DNA of 33,735 bases from Nevskia sp. (GTDB taxonomy: Bacteria > Pseudomonadota > Gammaproteobacteria > Nevskiales > Nevskiaceae), in NCBI GenBank assembly GCA_019689635.1, contig JADGHB010000026.1, positions 1 to 33,735 on the forward strand. The letters run 5' to 3'. Each line of letters begins with the position of its first letter. Within the stretch, counting starts at the first letter, position 1. Below, one piece after another: positions 132 through 28,387 of the stretch. The notes under the pieces were generated by a model. The model saw only the letters and a list, made by a program, of their open reading frames with translations. It did not search any database and was not told where the DNA came from. The translations under genes were made by a program, and so were the position numbers.

Positions 132-257
132 TTGAGCCAGAACCCCGCCCATCCGCAGATCTCGTCAAAGCCCTGCCGCGAGGACGGTCGCCACACGCCA
201 CCCGCCCCGCAGCGGGAGTGGCTACCGGGCCTCGCCAGGGGAGGGCGTGTGCCATGA
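132..257 (+). CDS. Candidate leader ORF 0 (diverged copy of the pyrH start region), 41 aa
   Basis: This short ORF would start at TTG 132 and end at TGA 255-257, overlapping the next ATG (254) by four bases. It aligns without gaps at offset 122 to the next unit: by my hand count about 49 of 80 bases match between 132-211 and 254-333, and after that the match is nearly perfect. Residues shared with leader ORF 1 include the start MS, then P-A, I and K at matching places, and the tail [11 protein letters not shown]. The length difference from the 134-base unit is 12 bases, which keeps the frame. It is best read as an older, diverged duplicate of the pyrH start. Translation is unproven and TTG is a weak start. 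Confidence 0.3.
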   Translation: MSQNPAHPQISSKPCREDGRHTPPAPQREWLPGLARGGRVP

Positions 258-391
258 GCGCGGCCCCGGCCTATCGGCGCATCCTTCTCAAGCGATCGGG
301 CGAGGGCAGCGGCGACACGGTGTCCGCCGCGCAGCGGCGGTGGGTGCGGGAGTGGCTACCGGGCCTCGCCAGGGGAGGGTGTGCGCCATGA
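254..391 (+). CDS. Candidate leader ORF 1 (copy of PyrH N-terminus plus tail), 45 aa
   Basis: The ORF starts at ATG 254 behind a purine-rich aggggaggg stretch and ends at TGA 389-391, overlapping the ATG at 388 (ATGA). Its first residues [13 protein letters not shown] equal the PyrH N-terminus. The next residue is Arg (CGA) where PyrH has Leu (CTA), and after SGEG the sequence departs into a Gly/Arg-rich tail encoded partly by the hairpin element. It lacks all of the kinase fold, so it cannot be a working UMP kinase. If translated, it would act by coupling or as a leader peptide. The alternative is that it is only the by-product of a tandem duplication. Confidence 0.4.
314..356 (+). repeat. 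Hairpin element with GNA triloop, copy in pyrH leader unit 1
   Basis: The conserved left flank gacacggtgt (314-323) is followed by a 7-bp stem ccgccgc/gcggcgg with loop gca (324-340), then the conserved right flank tgggtgcggg (341-350), two bases and tggc. The same flanks surround a different stem between hflK and hflC (27427-27466). A GNA loop closed by C-G, as here, is known from unusually stable DNA mini-hairpins. Confidence 0.75.
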
Positions 392-525
392 GCGCGGCCC
401 CGGCCTATCGGCGCATCCTGCTCAAGCGATCGGGCGAGGGCAGCGGCGACACGGTGTCCGCCGCGCAGCGGCGGTGGGTGCGGGAGTGGCTACCGGGCCT
501 CGCCAGGGGAGGGCGTGCGCCATGA
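388..525 (+). CDS. Candidate leader ORF 2 (second copy of PyrH N-terminus plus tail), 45 aa
   Basis: This ORF is nearly identical to leader ORF 1 and lies 134 bases downstream. It starts at ATG 388 with the same upstream purine stretch and ends at TGA 523-525, overlapping the pyrH ATG at 522 (ATGA). The only amino acid difference from ORF 1 is near the tail (Cys against Arg). Because the repeat length is not a multiple of three but each ORF is 138 bases with a 4-base overlap, each copy hands over exactly to the next frame and the last hands over to pyrH. Translation is not proven. Confidence 0.4.
448..490 (+). repeat. Hairpin element with GNA triloop, copy in pyrH leader unit 2
   Basis: This copy is identical to the element at 314-356, 134 bases downstream: flank gacacggtgt, stem ccgccgc/gcggcgg with gca loop, flank tgggtgcggg. 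It lies directly before the sequence holding the pyrH ribosome-binding site, so it could affect ribosome access to pyrH if transcribed. Confidence 0.75.
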
Positions 526-1244
526 GCGCGGCCCCGGCCTATCGGCGCATCCTTCTCAAGCTATCGGGCGAGGCCCTCCTCGGCGAGCTCGCCTACGGCA
601 TCTCCCCGACGGTGATGGCGCGCCTGGCGGGGGAACTCAAGGAAGTGCTGGCGCTGGGCGTGCAGGTCGCCATCGTGGTGGGCGGCGGCAACATTTTTCG
701 CGGCGAGGGTCTGGCCCGCGCCGGCATGGACCGCGTCACCGGCGACCAGATGGGCATGCTCGCCACCGTGATCAACGCGCTGGCGATCCAGGATGCGGTG
801 GAGCGCGCGGGGCTGGAGGCGCGGGTGCAGTCGGCGATCCGCATCAACGAGGTCTGCGAGGATTACATTCGCCGCCGTGCGATCCGGCATCTCGAGAAAG
901 GCCGCGTGGTGGTGTTCGCCGCCGGCACCGGCAATCCCTTTTTCACCACCGACTCTGCGGCGGCGCTGCGCGCCATCGAGATCAACGCCGACCTGCTGCT
1001 GAAAGCGACCAAGGTGGACGGCGTGTACAACGCCGATCCGCTGAAGCACAAAGACGCCAAGCGCTACGACAAGCTGACCTACGACGAGGCGCTCGACCGG
1101 CGCTTGGGCGTGATGGACCAGACCGCGCTGGTGCTGTGCCGCGACAACCGCATCCGCCTGCGGGTGTACGACATGGAGCGGGCCGGTGCCTTGCTGCGCA
1201 TCGTGCAGGGCGACGACCGCATCGGCACCTCGGTTTTTAACTGA
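522..1244 (+). CDS. pyrH: UMP kinase
   Basis: PyrH phosphorylates UMP to UDP in pyrimidine nucleotide synthesis and works as a cytoplasmic hexamer of the amino acid kinase fold. The 240-residue product has the usual length. Visible family motifs are KLSGEAL near residues 13-19, GGGNIFRG at 54-61, TGNPFFTTD at 136-144 and KATKVDGVY further on. I place the start at ATG 522 because residues before it do not belong to the family and because this is the last ATG of the tandem array. Its start overlaps the stop of leader ORF 2 by ATGA, and its ribosome-binding region (aggggaggg) is itself part of the 134-base repeat. frr follows after 30 bases, the usual order. The leader suggests expression depends on translational coupling; that part is inference. 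Confidence 0.97.
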
Positions 1245-1274: not shown

Positions 1275-1832
1275 ATGGTCGAGGACATCAAGAAGGATGC
1301 CGCCGCACGCATGCAAAAGTGCCTGGACCAGTTCAAGCAGGCGCTGGCCAAGCTGCGCACCGGGCGCGCCAGCACGGCGTTGCTGGAGCACGTGAAAGTG
1401 GATTATTACGGCAACGAAACGCCGCTCAATCAGGTCGCCAGCATCGTGGTGGAGGACGCGCGCACGCTGACCATCACGCCCTGGGAGAAGAACCTGGTGC
1501 CGGCGATCGAGAAAGCGATCCTCGCCTCCGACTTGGGCCTCACGCCCAATACCGCCGGCACGGTGATCCGCATCAATCTGCCGCCGCTGACCGAGGAGCG
1601 GCGCCGGGAGCTGATCAAGCTGGTCAAGGCCGAAACCGAGTCGGCGCGCGTGGCGATCCGCAACGTGCGCCGCGACGCCAATCAGGCGATCAAGGAACTG
1701 GCGAAGGACAAACGCATCACCGGCGACGCCGAGAAAAAAGCGGAAAGCGAAATCCAGAAGTTGACCGACCAGTACATCGCCAAGGCCGAGGAGGCGATGG
1801 CGGCGAAGGAAAAAGAGCTGCTGGCGGTCTGA
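1275..1832 (+). CDS. frr: Ribosome recycling factor
   Basis: RRF splits the post-termination ribosome together with EF-G. The 185-residue protein has the family's normal length and sequence, including the internal [18 protein letters not shown] and LTEERR segments and a helix-rich C-terminus. It starts at ATG 1275 with an aagga stretch about 9 bases upstream. It lies 30 bases after pyrH, as expected. What is odd is downstream: cdsA starts only 31 bases after the stop, so the uppS gene that normally stands between frr and cdsA is not here. Confidence 0.98.
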
Positions 1833-1863
1833 AGCCGCCGCCCTCCGGCGCCGGCGCGGCGAC

Positions 1864-2679
1864 ATGCTCAAACAACGACTGATCACCGCGTTGATTCTTC
1901 TGCCCTTGGTGCTCGCGGCGGTGTGGTACGCGCCGCTGCCGTGGCTGTATCTGCTGTTCGCGGCCGTGGCCTTGCTGGCAGCCAGGGAGTGGACCGCGCT
2001 GATGGGGGTGAGCCGCGGCTCGCTGCGCGCGCTCTATCTGCTGGCGAGCGCCGCGCTGCTGGCGGGGGCCTGGTTCGCGCGTGCGCAGTGGATCTGGTTC
2101 GCGGGCGCCGCGGTGCTGTGGTGGCTGGTCGCGGCCGCCTTGCTGCCGGGGTTCCCGGGCAATCTCGAGCGCTGGCGGCCGAACGCCTGGTGGCTGGGCG
2201 CGCTCGGACAACTGCTGTGGGTGCCGGCGGTGACGTCGCTGGCGATGCTGCGCGCCATGCCGGACGGCGCGCTGCGCCTGGCTTACGTGCTCGCGCTGGT
2301 GTGGGCGGCGGATGTGGGCGCATATCTCGCCGGCCGCAGCTTCGGACGCCGCAAGCTGGCGCCGAACATCTCGCCGGGCAAGACGCGCGAGGGTCTGTAC
2401 GGCGGGCTGCTGCTGTGCGCGCTGTGGGCGGCCATCGCCGGCAGCTACGTCTTCGCGGTCGGCGATCTGCGGTCGCTGGTGCTGATCGTCGTTCTGAGCC
2501 TGGCGGCCGCGGCGCTGTCGGTGGTGGGCGATCTGACGCTCAGCATGTTCAAACGCCGGTCCGGAGTGAAGGACAGCGGCGCGCTGCTGCCCGGCCACGG
2601 CGGAGTGCTCGACCGCGCCGACAGCCTGCTGGCGGCGGCCCCGGCGATGGCGCTGGGCCTGCGCTGGCTGCACGGGTGA
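1864..2679 (+). CDS. cdsA: Phosphatidate cytidylyltransferase (CDP-diglyceride synthase)
   Basis: CdsA makes CDP-diacylglycerol from phosphatidic acid and CTP at the inner membrane, the precursor of all phospholipids. The 271-residue protein is made of successive hydrophobic segments starting near residue 7. Near its C-terminus it carries the family signature, from SMFKRRSGVKDSG to LPGHGGVLDRAD; the last part has Ala where the pattern usually has a larger hydrophobic residue. The start at ATG 1864 leaves a 31-base gap after frr. No dxr gene follows it; instead there are 132 non-coding bases before rseP. Confidence 0.96.
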   Translation: MLKQRLITALILLPLVLAAVWYAPLPWLYLLFAAVALLAAREWTALMGVSRGSLRALYLLASAALLAGAWFARAQWIWFAGAAVLWWLVAAALLPGFPGNLERWRPNAWWLGALGQLLWVPAVTSLAMLRAMPDGALRLAYVLALVWAADVGAYLAGRSFGRRKLAPNISPGKTREGLYGGLLLCALWAAIAGSYVFAVGDLRSLVLIVVLSLAAAALSVVGDLTLSMFKRRSGVKDSGALLPGHGGVLDRADSLLAAAPAMALGLRWLHG

Positions 2680-2691
2680 ACCCTGCTCTGC

Positions 2692-2720
2692 GGAACGCCA
2701 CACGCCGCGGCGCGGTCGAA
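2692..2720 (+). promoter_or_regulatory. Possible sigma-E (RpoE)-like promoter for the rseP-bamA-skp-lpx genes
   Basis: GGAAC at 2692-2696 and GTCGAA at 2715-2720 are 18 bases apart, close to the ECF/RpoE pattern of GGAAC(TT) and a TC-containing -10 box. The gap of 132 bases between cdsA and rseP (2680-2811) is the only room for a promoter before the envelope block. In E. coli rseP, bamA and skp are sigma-E targets. The match is partial and the downstream half is weak. Confidence 0.35.
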
Positions 2721-2811
2721 CCCCGGCGCCGGCACGGCCGTGCGTTCTCGGTTATCTTGAAACCTTTGCTGCGCAGCCTCGCCGCAGGCGCGCGTCGCGG
2801 GAGCGGAAGCA

Positions 2812-4176
2812 ATGCTTGAGTGGTTGCGCAACGCGGGGACCTTCATCGTCGCCATCGGCCTGCTGGTGTCGTTCCACGAGTTCGGGCATTTCTGGATGGC
2901 GCGCCGTTTCGGCGTGCGCGTGTTGCGGTTTTCGGTCGGGTTCGGCAAGCCGCTGTGGCTCAAGCGCGGACGCGACGGCGTGGAATACGCGGTCGGCGCC
3001 ATTCCTCTGGGCGGCTACGTCAAACTGCTGGACGAACGCGAGGGCCCGGTGCCGCCCGCGCTGCTGGCGCACAGCTTCAACCGTCAGAAACTGGGGGTGC
3101 GCCTGGCGGTGTACGCCGCGGGTCCGCTGTTCAATTTCCTGCTCGCGGTATTGCTTTACTGGGGCATGTACCTGGTCGGCGTGCCGGGCCTCAAACCCTT
3201 GCTCGCGCAGCCGCCCGCCGGCACGCCGGCTTCCGCCACCGGCGTGCACGCCGGCGACCGGGTGACGGCGCTCGACGACGCGCCGGTGCCGACCTGGGGC
3301 GAATTGCGCACTGGCCTCGTCGAGGCCGCGCTGGCGCGCCGCGCCGTGACCCTGACCATCGTCGGCCGCGACGGCGCGGCGCGCCAGATCGTGCTGGACA
3401 CGCGCGGCGTGCGGGTGGATCCGCAGTATCTGTTCGACGATCTCGGCCTGGCGCCCTACCAGCCGCCGCTGCCGCCGGTGATCGGCGAGGTTTTCCCGGG
3501 CAGCGCGGCGGAGCAAGCCGGCCTCAAGAGTGGCGACCGCGTGCTGCGCTTCAACGGCCAGCCGGTGGAGAGCTTCCAGGACCTGCAGCGGGACGTCGCC
3601 GCCAACCCGGGCGAAGTGATCACGCTCGAAGTGCAGCGCGGCAGCCAGACGCTGCGCCTGAGCGCGATCCCGAGCCGTGTCCAGGCCGACGGAAAAACGA
3701 TCGGCCGCCTCGGCGCGGCGTCGGCGCGCGTGGCGGATCGGCAGGCTTTGTGGCAGGATTTGTACACCGACGTACGGCTGGCACCGGGCGCGGCGCTGGT
3801 CGCGGCCCTGCAGCAGACCGGGCAGATCTCGGGGCTGACGCTGCGCATGCTGTATCACATGGTGCTCGGCGACGTGTCGGTGAGGAACGTCAGCGGCCCG
3901 ATCGAGATTGCGCAGGTCACCGGCGTCGCCGCCAGCGCCGGGCTCGAGGAATTCCTGTGGACGCTCGCGCTGATCAGCGTGAGCCTGGGGGTTTTCAATC
4001 TGCTGCCAGTGCCGGTGCTGGACGGCGGGCAGATCCTGTACGGCCTGGTGGAGGCGGTGAAGGGTTCGCCGCTGTCGGAGCGCGCGCAGGCCTTGGGCCA
4101 GCAGATCGGGCTGACGCTGCTGGCCTTGTTGATGGGACTGGCTTTCTACAACGACATTGCGCGCCTGATGGGCTGA
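2812..4176 (+). CDS. rseP: RIP metalloprotease RseP (site-2 protease)
   Basis: RseP is an inner-membrane zinc protease that cuts the anti-sigma factor RseA within the membrane to release sigma E and also clears signal-peptide remnants. The 454-residue product has the HEFGH zinc motif at residues 22-26 in the first membrane segment. Two PDZ domains lie at about 115-190 and 220-305. The third zinc ligand is in NLLPVPVLDGG, with Asp at residue 404. A ggga/gga stretch precedes ATG 2812. The gene opens a tight run: bamA starts 6 bases after its stop. dxr, which usually precedes it, is absent. Confidence 0.97.
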   Translation: MLEWLRNAGTFIVAIGLLVSFHEFGHFWMARRFGVRVLRFSVGFGKPLWLKRGRDGVEYAVGAIPLGGYVKLLDEREGPVPPALLAHSFNRQKLGVRLAVYAAGPLFNFLLAVLLYWGMYLVGVPGLKPLLAQPPAGTPASATGVHAGDRVTALDDAPVPTWGELRTGLVEAALARRAVTLTIVGRDGAARQIVLDTRGVRVDPQYLFDDLGLAPYQPPLPPVIGEVFPGSAAEQAGLKSGDRVLRFNGQPVESFQDLQRDVAANPGEVITLEVQRGSQTLRLSAIPSRVQADGKTIGRLGAASARVADRQALWQDLYTDVRLAPGAALVAALQQTGQISGLTLRMLYHMVLGDVSVRNVSGPIEIAQVTGVAASAGLEEFLWTLALISVSLGVFNLLPVPVLDGGQILYGLVEAVKGSPLSERAQALGQQIGLTLLALLMGLAFYNDIARLMG

Positions 4177-27416: not shown

Positions 27417-27524
27417 ATGAGCACGCCGACACGGTGTTTGCGCGAAGCGCAATGGGTGCGGGTGGCGCGCGTGCGCTCACGGCAAAGCTGGCACTGCCCT
27501 CCGACTGATGAGGTACACCCGTGA
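27417..27524 (+). CDS. Candidate small ORF bridging hflK and hflC, 35 aa
   Basis: This ORF starts one base after the hflK stop and ends at TGA 27522-27524, overlapping the GTG of hflC (GTGA). The predicted peptide begins MSTPTRCLREAQWVR and has two Cys residues and many Arg; I recognise no family. Much of it is encoded by the palindromic element at 27418-27479, so it may exist because the element is open in this frame. It could let ribosomes pass from hflK to hflC despite the insertion. Translation is unproven. Confidence 0.35.
   Translation: MSTPTRCLREAQWVRVARVRSRQSWHCPPTDEVHP
27427..27466 (+). repeat. Hairpin element with GNA triloop between hflK and hflC
   Basis: The left flank cgacacggtgt (27427-27437) and right flank tgggtgcggg (27453-27462) followed by tggc match the pyrH leader elements exactly, apart from two extra bases there. 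The stem differs in sequence, ttgcgc/gcgcaa with a gaa loop (27438-27452), yet is still fully paired. The element sits in a larger imperfect palindrome with ends tgagcacgc (27418-27426) and gcgtgcgctca (27469-27479). Confidence 0.7.
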
Positions 27525-28387
27525 GCCTGCGCCAGAGTCTGGTGATCGCCGCCGCCGCGGCGGTGCTGTTGCTGCTCAACAGCGTTTACGTCATCGACGA
27601 GCGCGCGCTGGGCATCCTGTTCCGGTTCGGCGAGGTCCAGCGCGCGCCGCTGGCGCCGGGCTTGCACTTCAAATGGCCTTTCGCCGAAAGCGTGGTCAAG
27701 CTCGATCGCCGGCTGCGCGACGATGGACACAGCGTGCGCGTGCCCACCTCGGACCAGAACACGCTCGAGGTCGATTTTTACGTGCGCTGGCGCATCGCCG
27801 ATCCGGTGGCCTACTATCGCGCGACCGGCGGCCAGGAGCTGGTGGCCGGCGACCGCTTGCTGACGCTGGTCGATCGCAGCCTGCGCGATGCGCTGGCCAC
27901 GCGCAGCGTGGCGCAGGTCGTGGCCGACAGCGGCGCCGCGCTGCCGGCGCAACTGCGCGGCGCTACCCAAACCAAAGCCACGGAGCTGGGCATCGAGGTC
28001 GCCGACGTGCGCATCGAGCACCTCGCGCTCGGCAAGGAAATCGCGGAGTCCTACTACGAACGCATGCGCGCGGAACGCCGGCGCATCGCTGAGCAGTTGC
28101 GCGCGCAAGGGGCCGAGGAGGCCGAAACGCTGCGCGCTGAGGCCGATCGCCAGGCGCAAGCCACGCTCGACGAGGCCTACCGCAAGGCCGAAGCCCTGCG
28201 CGGCGAGGGCGACGCCAAGGCCGCCGAAATCTATGCGGCGGCCTACGGGCAAGATCCCGCTTTCTTCGCCTTTTACCGTTCGCTGCAAGCCTACCGCGAC
28301 GCTTTCAAGGGCAAGCGCGACGTGCTGGTGATCGAGCCCAAGGGCGAGTTCTTCAAATACTTCCGCGACAGCGGAGGCGGGCCGTGA
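27521..28387 (+). CDS. hflC: FtsH-associated membrane protein HflC
   Basis: HflC is the partner of HflK in the SPFH cage around FtsH. The 288-residue product has one membrane segment at about 7-22, a band-7 domain (VIDERALGILFRFGEV to about 190) and a coiled-coil stretch with RRIAEQLRAQGAEEAE. The family segment FFAFYRSLQAY and the end GEFFKYF follow. GTG 27521 has a tgagg ribosome-binding stretch about 8 bases upstream and overlaps the stop of the bridging ORF. Its own stop overlaps the GTG of the DUF2065 gene. Confidence 0.95.
   Translation: MSLRQSLVIAAAAAVLLLLNSVYVIDERALGILFRFGEVQRAPLAPGLHFKWPFAESVVKLDRRLRDDGHSVRVPTSDQNTLEVDFYVRWRIADPVAYYRATGGQELVAGDRLLTLVDRSLRDALATRSVAQVVADSGAALPAQLRGATQTKATELGIEVADVRIEHLALGKEIAESYYERMRAERRRIAEQLRAQGAEEAETLRAEADRQAQATLDEAYRKAEALRGEGDAKAAEIYAAAYGQDPAFFAFYRSLQAYRDAFKGKRDVLVIEPKGEFFKYFRDSGGGP

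Follow-up and report, generated by a model that had tools for sequence, protein, structure and literature searches.

A mobile-looking palindromic repeat that may keep operon genes translationally coupled, tandemly copied at the start of pyrH in a Nevskia genome

The DNA analysed here (the window) is one whole contig of 33,735 nt, C65, from the 2.81-Mb, 101-contig genome of a Nevskia sp. (G000). A tandem array begins 211 bases from the contig end and occupies positions 212-573, where a tandem-repeat scan of the window gave a period of 134 bases, 2.7 copies and 97% matches. Pairwise, units 212-345 and 346-479 have 131 of 134 bases in common, and units 346-479 and 480-573 have 91 of 94. Comparison of the three units shows that each has substitutions of its own, which argues against a simple assembly duplicate; the contig as assembled contains three leader units, which is a provisional copy number. 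The array has ATGs at 254, 388 and 522, and the features of the region are as follows (R1 is a covariance model used for searching):

132..257, + strand: leader ORF 1, beginning at a TTG, 41 codons plus stop (255-257), stopping on the ATGA at 254; a native-looking pyrH start, decayed, then a degenerate element
189..218, + strand: degenerate element core, aligned to the unit 1 core with a 12-base gap
237..245, + strand: Shine-Dalgarno-like stretch AGGGGAGGG, 5' of ATG 254
254..391, + strand: leader ORF 2, beginning at an ATG, 45 codons plus stop (389-391), overlapping ATG 388
313..352, + strand: element core 1, CGACACGG...TGGGTGCGGGAG, with apical stem CCGCCGC-GCA-GCGGCGG; R1 match 301-368, 60.3 bits
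371..379, + strand: Shine-Dalgarno-like stretch AGGGGAGGG, 5' of ATG 388
388..525, + strand: leader ORF 3, beginning at an ATG, 45 codons plus stop (523-525), overlapping the pyrH ATG at 522
447..486, + strand: element core 2; R1 match 435-502, 60.3 bits
505..513, + strand: Shine-Dalgarno-like stretch AGGGGAGGG, 5' of the pyrH ATG at 522
522..1244, + strand: pyrH, UMP kinase (NCBIfam TIGR02075, 320.5 bits, cut-off 243.9)

The three Shine-Dalgarno-like stretches were read from the sequence. Every leader ORF (132-257, 254-391, 388-525) closes in the NTGA at which the next frame starts, pyrH being the last in the chain, and codons 1-17 of leader ORF 2 are a near-exact copy of the pyrH start. A sequence-only reading of this DNA had described the 134-base repeat, its ATGs, the 45-codon ORFs and the ATGA hand-over, and a repeat scan with rechecked ORF ends returned all of them as claimed. 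Its hand count of 49 matching bases out of 80 (132-211 vs 254-333) turned out to be exact, and the 12-base length difference that it gave for the upstream unit is one gap, in a gapped alignment that scores above 1000 of 1000 shuffles. That diverged upstream unit had been taken for an older copy, which is right in part: a degenerate element does lie there, its core (189..218) giving no match to R1 at E up to 0.05, but TTG 132 seems to be the native start of pyrH, with a degenerate element copy after it: 32 of 51 bases here agree with congener G001 at its TTG start (0 of 1000 shuffles were as good). 5' of the pyrH chain, the contig shows no upstream gene that overlaps it. On the other side of pyrH, frr (1275-1832) is directly followed by a phosphatidate cytidylyltransferase (cdsA-like) ORF (1864-2679) and then by rseP (2812-4176), the whole spanning 1275-4176; a uppS-like ORF (HVAVVMDGNGRWA), seen by eye 3' of frr in four relatives (L006, L007, L009, L010), is absent between frr and the cdsA-like ORF here.

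The element consists of CGACACGGYGT, an apical stem and TGGGTGCGGGAG, enclosed by a variable outer stem. Across 12 aligned elements, CGACACGG and GGGTGCGGG are invariant while the two stems vary, and the outer stem pairs; an alignment, A2, was dropped as poor. Pairing holds in 91.9% of 123 stem cells of the 12 elements, both sides are changed in 6 of 13 pairs (as many in 7 of 500 shuffles), and covariation reaches 0.305, compared with a shuffled mean of 0.130 (0 of 500 shuffles reach the observed value) and with slid partners, which reach 0.096 at most. Further pair types are no more numerous than in shuffles (97 of 500 as high). We base the structure on covariation, since folding energies by themselves are not clearly beyond those of shuffles (z from -2.08 to 0.37 in eight sequences). 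Rfam gave 0 matches at gathering scores for 12 sources totalling 62164 bases, and a known RNA family was rejected for this reason. The 3' outer arm of the element at pyrH, GGGCCTCGCC (227-236, 361-370, 495-504), is the reverse complement of the gene's own codons at the point of insertion, GGCGAGGCCC at 567 (567-576). The arm in congener G003 has GGGCTTCGC and its pyrH has GGCGAAGCC, the differences from the window being synonymous and species-specific, which suggests either separate insertions that copied target sequence or joint change of arm and codons after one insertion. At L006, the complementarity between arm and host codons involves positions 1475 and 1546.

The first lead beyond pyrH came from comparing its start region with its own genome, which gave weak matches at the ends of contigs C51 and C81, where the same core adjoins copies of the start of murU (NCBIfam NF045761, 260.7 bits, cut-off 250). 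Both contigs end in the murU cassette (L106 1216-1277, L107 30-91), as if the assembly broke at repeated units. An early pattern search, in which the reversed control was nearly as frequent and only core-like matches were kept, by eye, pointed to three other places and to the stretch before hflC in the window (27417-27520). When the two halves of the core were searched for as a pattern, 4 of 18 genomes of the genus had it, with 0 in the reversed control. R1 had matches in 24 of 41 genomes at E up to 0.1. In a larger genome set, with the limit at 0.01, it matched in 39 of 85 genomes of the order, some of them with a single weak match; these were 37 of the 58 genomes of the window's family (Nevskiaceae-type) and 2 of the 27 outside it. 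Within its own genome the element is also found at nuoF, ccmC, the gene for formylmethanofuran dehydrogenase subunit C and murU, and in relatives at many other genes. Elements near codon 10 of murU-like genes were seen in G000, G012 and G024 (L107, L121, L125), in two genera, the gene of G000 being model-confirmed; going by the sequences, this could reflect either common ancestry or a preferred site.

When the exact core pattern was searched in contigs of 84,980 species, 24 stretches were found. Nineteen belong to Nevskia, Hydrocarboniphaga, Solimonas marina (Nevskiales, Nevskiaceae), Stagnimonas, Nevskiaceae, or a gammaproteobacterial MAG. Three (L208, L212, L217) come from a record titled Verrucomicrobia bacterium, a title that looks wrong because their flanks equal those of congener G001 (by eye), and the last two, in actinobacteria, lack the apical stem and are probably chance matches. 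Searches with blastn found no match of the G000 hflC cassette in phages, nor in plasmids of a 207-base stretch containing one whole G081 cassette; in viral contigs the exact core pattern matched once, at a place where the middle, by eye, does not fold into the stem, and carriage by phages or plasmids was rejected on these results.

Elements occur in several settings. Of 206 elements (94 plus 137 matches, minus 25 excluded by hand as duplicate places and a few weak ones; each of the pairs L106/L107 and L158/L159 may be one site split by contig ends), 116 are in inverted pairs, 64 are single and 26 are in direct tandem. Many of the singles and tandems lie on a gene start, with a copy of that start just upstream. 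Gene ends are copied as well: Stagnimonas aquatica (msrA: TIGR00401, 188.8 bits) and the related MAG GW715_bin.28 have tandem repeats, spaced 133 bases apart, of the element together with the msrA 3' end (L204, L219, L245, L255), and the end of pgsA (TIGR00560, 154.1 bits) is copied with the element in G021. Start junctions are therefore one habitat only, since 116 of the 206 are paired in inverted orientation and gene 3' ends are also copied.

At start junctions, alignment of 17 units revealed a cassette of ~100 nt, made up of an NTGAG start, the hairpin, a spacer, an AAGGTG-like Shine-Dalgarno stretch and the gene's own NTGA. The window contains a second one, far from pyrH:

27417..27524, + strand: second cassette, with a 35-codon leader ORF (ATGAGC...) whose stop TGA (27522-27524) overlaps GTG 27521; R1 match 27418-27480, 54.7 bits; R2 match, 98.3 bits
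27521..28387, + strand: hflC, 3' of the second cassette (NCBIfam TIGR01932, 245.2 bits, cut-off 134.4)

A 33-base tandem repeat (3.2 copies, 67% matches) was also seen at 28119-28223.

The model R2 was built from the 17 coupled junction units and may favour coupled ones. It gave at least 69 full-length matches (down to E about 1e-4), from which one was dropped and 10 were set aside for want of an NTGA left border, leaving 58 cassettes; every count out of 58 cassettes below holds among the R2 matches listed. In 56 of the 58, the leader's stop falls on the NTGA start of a long ORF or of the following unit. The two failures are L109, with its stop just inside ccmC, 8 bases after the A of the ATG, and L382, which stops on a GTG with a 6-codon frame. 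In 49 of the 58 the left border TGA closes an upstream ORF that has 100 codons or more; the other nine left borders are five later tandem units, one contig edge and three others. Stop-on-start falls at the model's right border in 52 of the 58, L382 included, and 5 of the remaining 6 (L305, L363, L388, L405, L406) end on a start elsewhere. The right border is at distance 102 in four of the listed units (L109, L388, L405, L406), three of which continue to a start further on. In view of R2's origin in coupled units, a second pattern, containing only the left border and the core, was used as a check. It found 23 places among 58 genomes, and its reversed control 0 in all 58. Of the 23, L298 and L304 are unrelated sequences and L300, which is L112's place, is an inverted pair; the leaders of the remaining 20 all close on a start, either that of a long ORF or that of the following unit, one of them by reading through a second unit.

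By definition, the start-to-start length of a coupled leader equals 2 modulo 3. The observed lengths from leader start to gene start vary widely (74, 98, 101, 104, 107, 116, 119, 122, 125, 134, 155, 176 and 179), and the link is kept throughout. The core is read as PTRC in 22 of the 58 cassettes among the R2 matches listed, as RHG in 36, and as DTV at pyrH, that is, in all three frames. Varied lengths together with a core read in three frames suggest that length changes were either compensated or filtered. For a random unit to be coupled, its frame would have to be right, a chance of one in three, and it would have to stay open, as about 21 of 48 base-shuffled units do. The proposal that the pyrH ORFs form a coupled leader was sound as to layout, which is real and does not look like chance, because 56 of 58 cassettes at other genes (among the R2 matches listed) show it and the connecting frame outlasts length changes; it did not hold as to a device specific to pyrH. 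At the same time, copies within a genome are related, so the 58 cassettes do not stand for 58 independent events. Variable bases by codon position numbered 49, 69 and 57 in 17 Solimonas-type units, with no third-position excess, and hence no selection on the peptide is seen; given the three frames and the lack of codon-position bias, a conserved leader peptide was rejected.

Presence and absence could be compared at one site. Between murG and murC, Solimonas marina has a 101-nt cassette with both neighbours keeping their ends, while 10 of 10 congeners have a plain ATGA/GTGA stop-start overlap without it; with ten relatives lacking it, the simplest reading is that it was gained in one lineage. 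Both genes were assigned as best model matches, with scores below full-length cut-offs because partial sequences were used. ATGAGC flanks the insert on both sides and occurs once in the congeners, as might fit the target duplication of a MITE, but by eye the duplicated length ranges from 6 to about 50 nt between sites. Two further loci were less suited to such a comparison. None of 11 compared hflK-hflC junctions (from 29 relative loci) has a cassette, and they are too diverged to place the insertion point; a Hydrocarboniphaga cassette was rejected as an empty-site case, as 4 of 5 relatives have matches and there is no clear overlapping upstream gene. As for pyrH, the 230 bases 5' of the gene contain the element in G003 only among 16 congeners, where it lies between a TTG start and a second ATG start, and in none of 10 genomes from other genera; in congener G009 no pyrH was found. 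Unit number, it had been suggested, could vary between strains, and it does differ (three in G000, one in G003, none in 15 congeners), though between species only.

Our preferred reading, to which we give a probability of roughly two in three, is that the sequences point to a mobile-looking palindromic repeat whose junction form would keep translational coupling, and which would have entered the pyrH start and been tandemly copied there with a mostly permissive effect. An insertion between overlapping operon genes is expected to break translational coupling. Here, the unit would arrive, by movement or by copying, in a stop-start overlap or among early codons and so double the start; a ribosome that has finished the upstream gene would re-initiate first on the leader and next on the gene, and translational coupling would survive the insertion. 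Selection would hold the connecting frame rather than the peptide, frame loss being selected against because it would uncouple the operon. At pyrH, a copy may have inserted near codon 17, so that the native TTG start became leader 1, after which the unit would have been tandemly duplicated; the chain would start at the native start, and the Shine-Dalgarno-like stretch of each unit may permit direct entry. The main effect is most likely permissive, namely operon-compatible insertion, with any tuning of pyrH secondary; the earlier idea that copy number acts as a volume control for pyrH dosage is possible but unsupported.

More tentatively, these units could represent a new class of mobile element, a coupling cassette of ~100 nt that targets operon NTGA overlaps, duplicates the overlap and survives by ribosome relay, stacked copies being serial relays that adjust stoichiometry. 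In general, a repeat bringing a connecting frame with it would explain how small mobile DNA gets into core operons (murG-murC, nuo, ccm, hflKC, pyrH) at no coupling cost, and would give rise to many easily missed mini-cistrons of about 35 codons. Such cassettes would be natural, countable relays for testing termination-reinitiation.

Other explanations have to be weighed against this one. The sequence-only reading had cast the array as a dedicated pyrH regulator, with UMP kinase output set, through ribosome hand-over, by how many leader cistrons precede the gene; the three leader units are indeed frame-perfect, the decayed one included, and G003 has one unit at the same gene, but the same cassette stands before hflC and other, unrelated genes, and we consider such a regulator improbable. 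A pyrH-specific leader was rejected because 15 of the 16 congeners compared have no element at pyrH. We think it quite improbable that the element is a cis-acting structured RNA (an attenuator or riboregulator) working through its conserved internal loop, with the ORF incidental: although the loop is conserved and its stems covary, Rfam has no match at gathering scores, folding energy is weak, elements also occur in inverted pairs and at gene ends, and the link to the next start is kept in 56 of 58 cassettes among the R2 matches listed. That the array is an assembly artefact, or the pyrH start simply duplicated in tandem, could be suspected in a 101-contig genome with the array 211 bases from a contig end, yet the units have their own substitutions and the inserted core recurs at other genes and in other genomes, including those of the isolates Solimonas marina and Stagnimonas aquatica, which makes this explanation very improbable.

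A REP/REPIN-type repeat moved by a RAYT transposase, with placement at start junctions a by-product of tolerance, would fit the inverted pairs (116 of 206) and the tandem clusters including flanks that are described for REPINs in the passages drawn on from PMC3116915, and Y1_Tnp is present in 15 of 18 genomes of the genus. On the other hand, a domain search gave no Y1_Tnp match in G000 or G003, despite their 12 and 18 R1 matches (E up to 0.01), and the element is found in only 2 of 30 Y1 loci, once weakly. The RAYT gene may have been lost after the spread. Given the Y1_Tnp results, we did not accept a RAYT transposase as the sure driver, and we regard this origin as rather doubtful.

The preferred reading of a mobile-looking repeat that keeps coupling can be set beside known systems. 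The titles, abstract openings and passages covered in open-licence literature contained no repeat forming a coupled mini-cistron at stop-start overlaps and no coupled pyrH leader array, while dealing with REP, REPIN, RPE and MITE (PMC3116915, PMC3733652, PMC10969869); a prior publication of such an element may exist. Like REPs and REPINs, the element is short, GC-rich, palindromic, dispersed and often in inverted pairs, and its stems covary; it differs in not being tied to RAYT genes and in having a junction form, located in stop-start overlaps, with an open frame and a Shine-Dalgarno-like stretch. The GTAG/CGTC-tagged REPs of PMC3733652 are similar in that the repeats touch coding regions, but no coupled mini-cistron is described in the passages of that paper drawn on here, and the terms 'start codon', 'Nevskia' and 'Hydrocarboniphaga' are absent from its main text. 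Rickettsia palindromic elements (RPEs), as presented in passages of PMC10969869, are likewise palindromic repeats that keep a reading frame open; they lie in-frame inside genes and have a conserved peptide, whereas the element here forms a separate leader cistron (56 of 58 among the R2 matches listed) and its peptide is not conserved. The same source describes the 235-bp Chunjie MITE of Geobacter uraniireducens, which disrupts a copy of the phosphate uptake operon (PMC10969869). Finally, the abstract of PMC6728339, on termination-reinitiation at ATGA overlaps, concerns overlapping gene pairs, with the same ATGA/GTGA geometry that is found here at both cassette ends; here, it belongs to a repeated element that duplicates the overlap.
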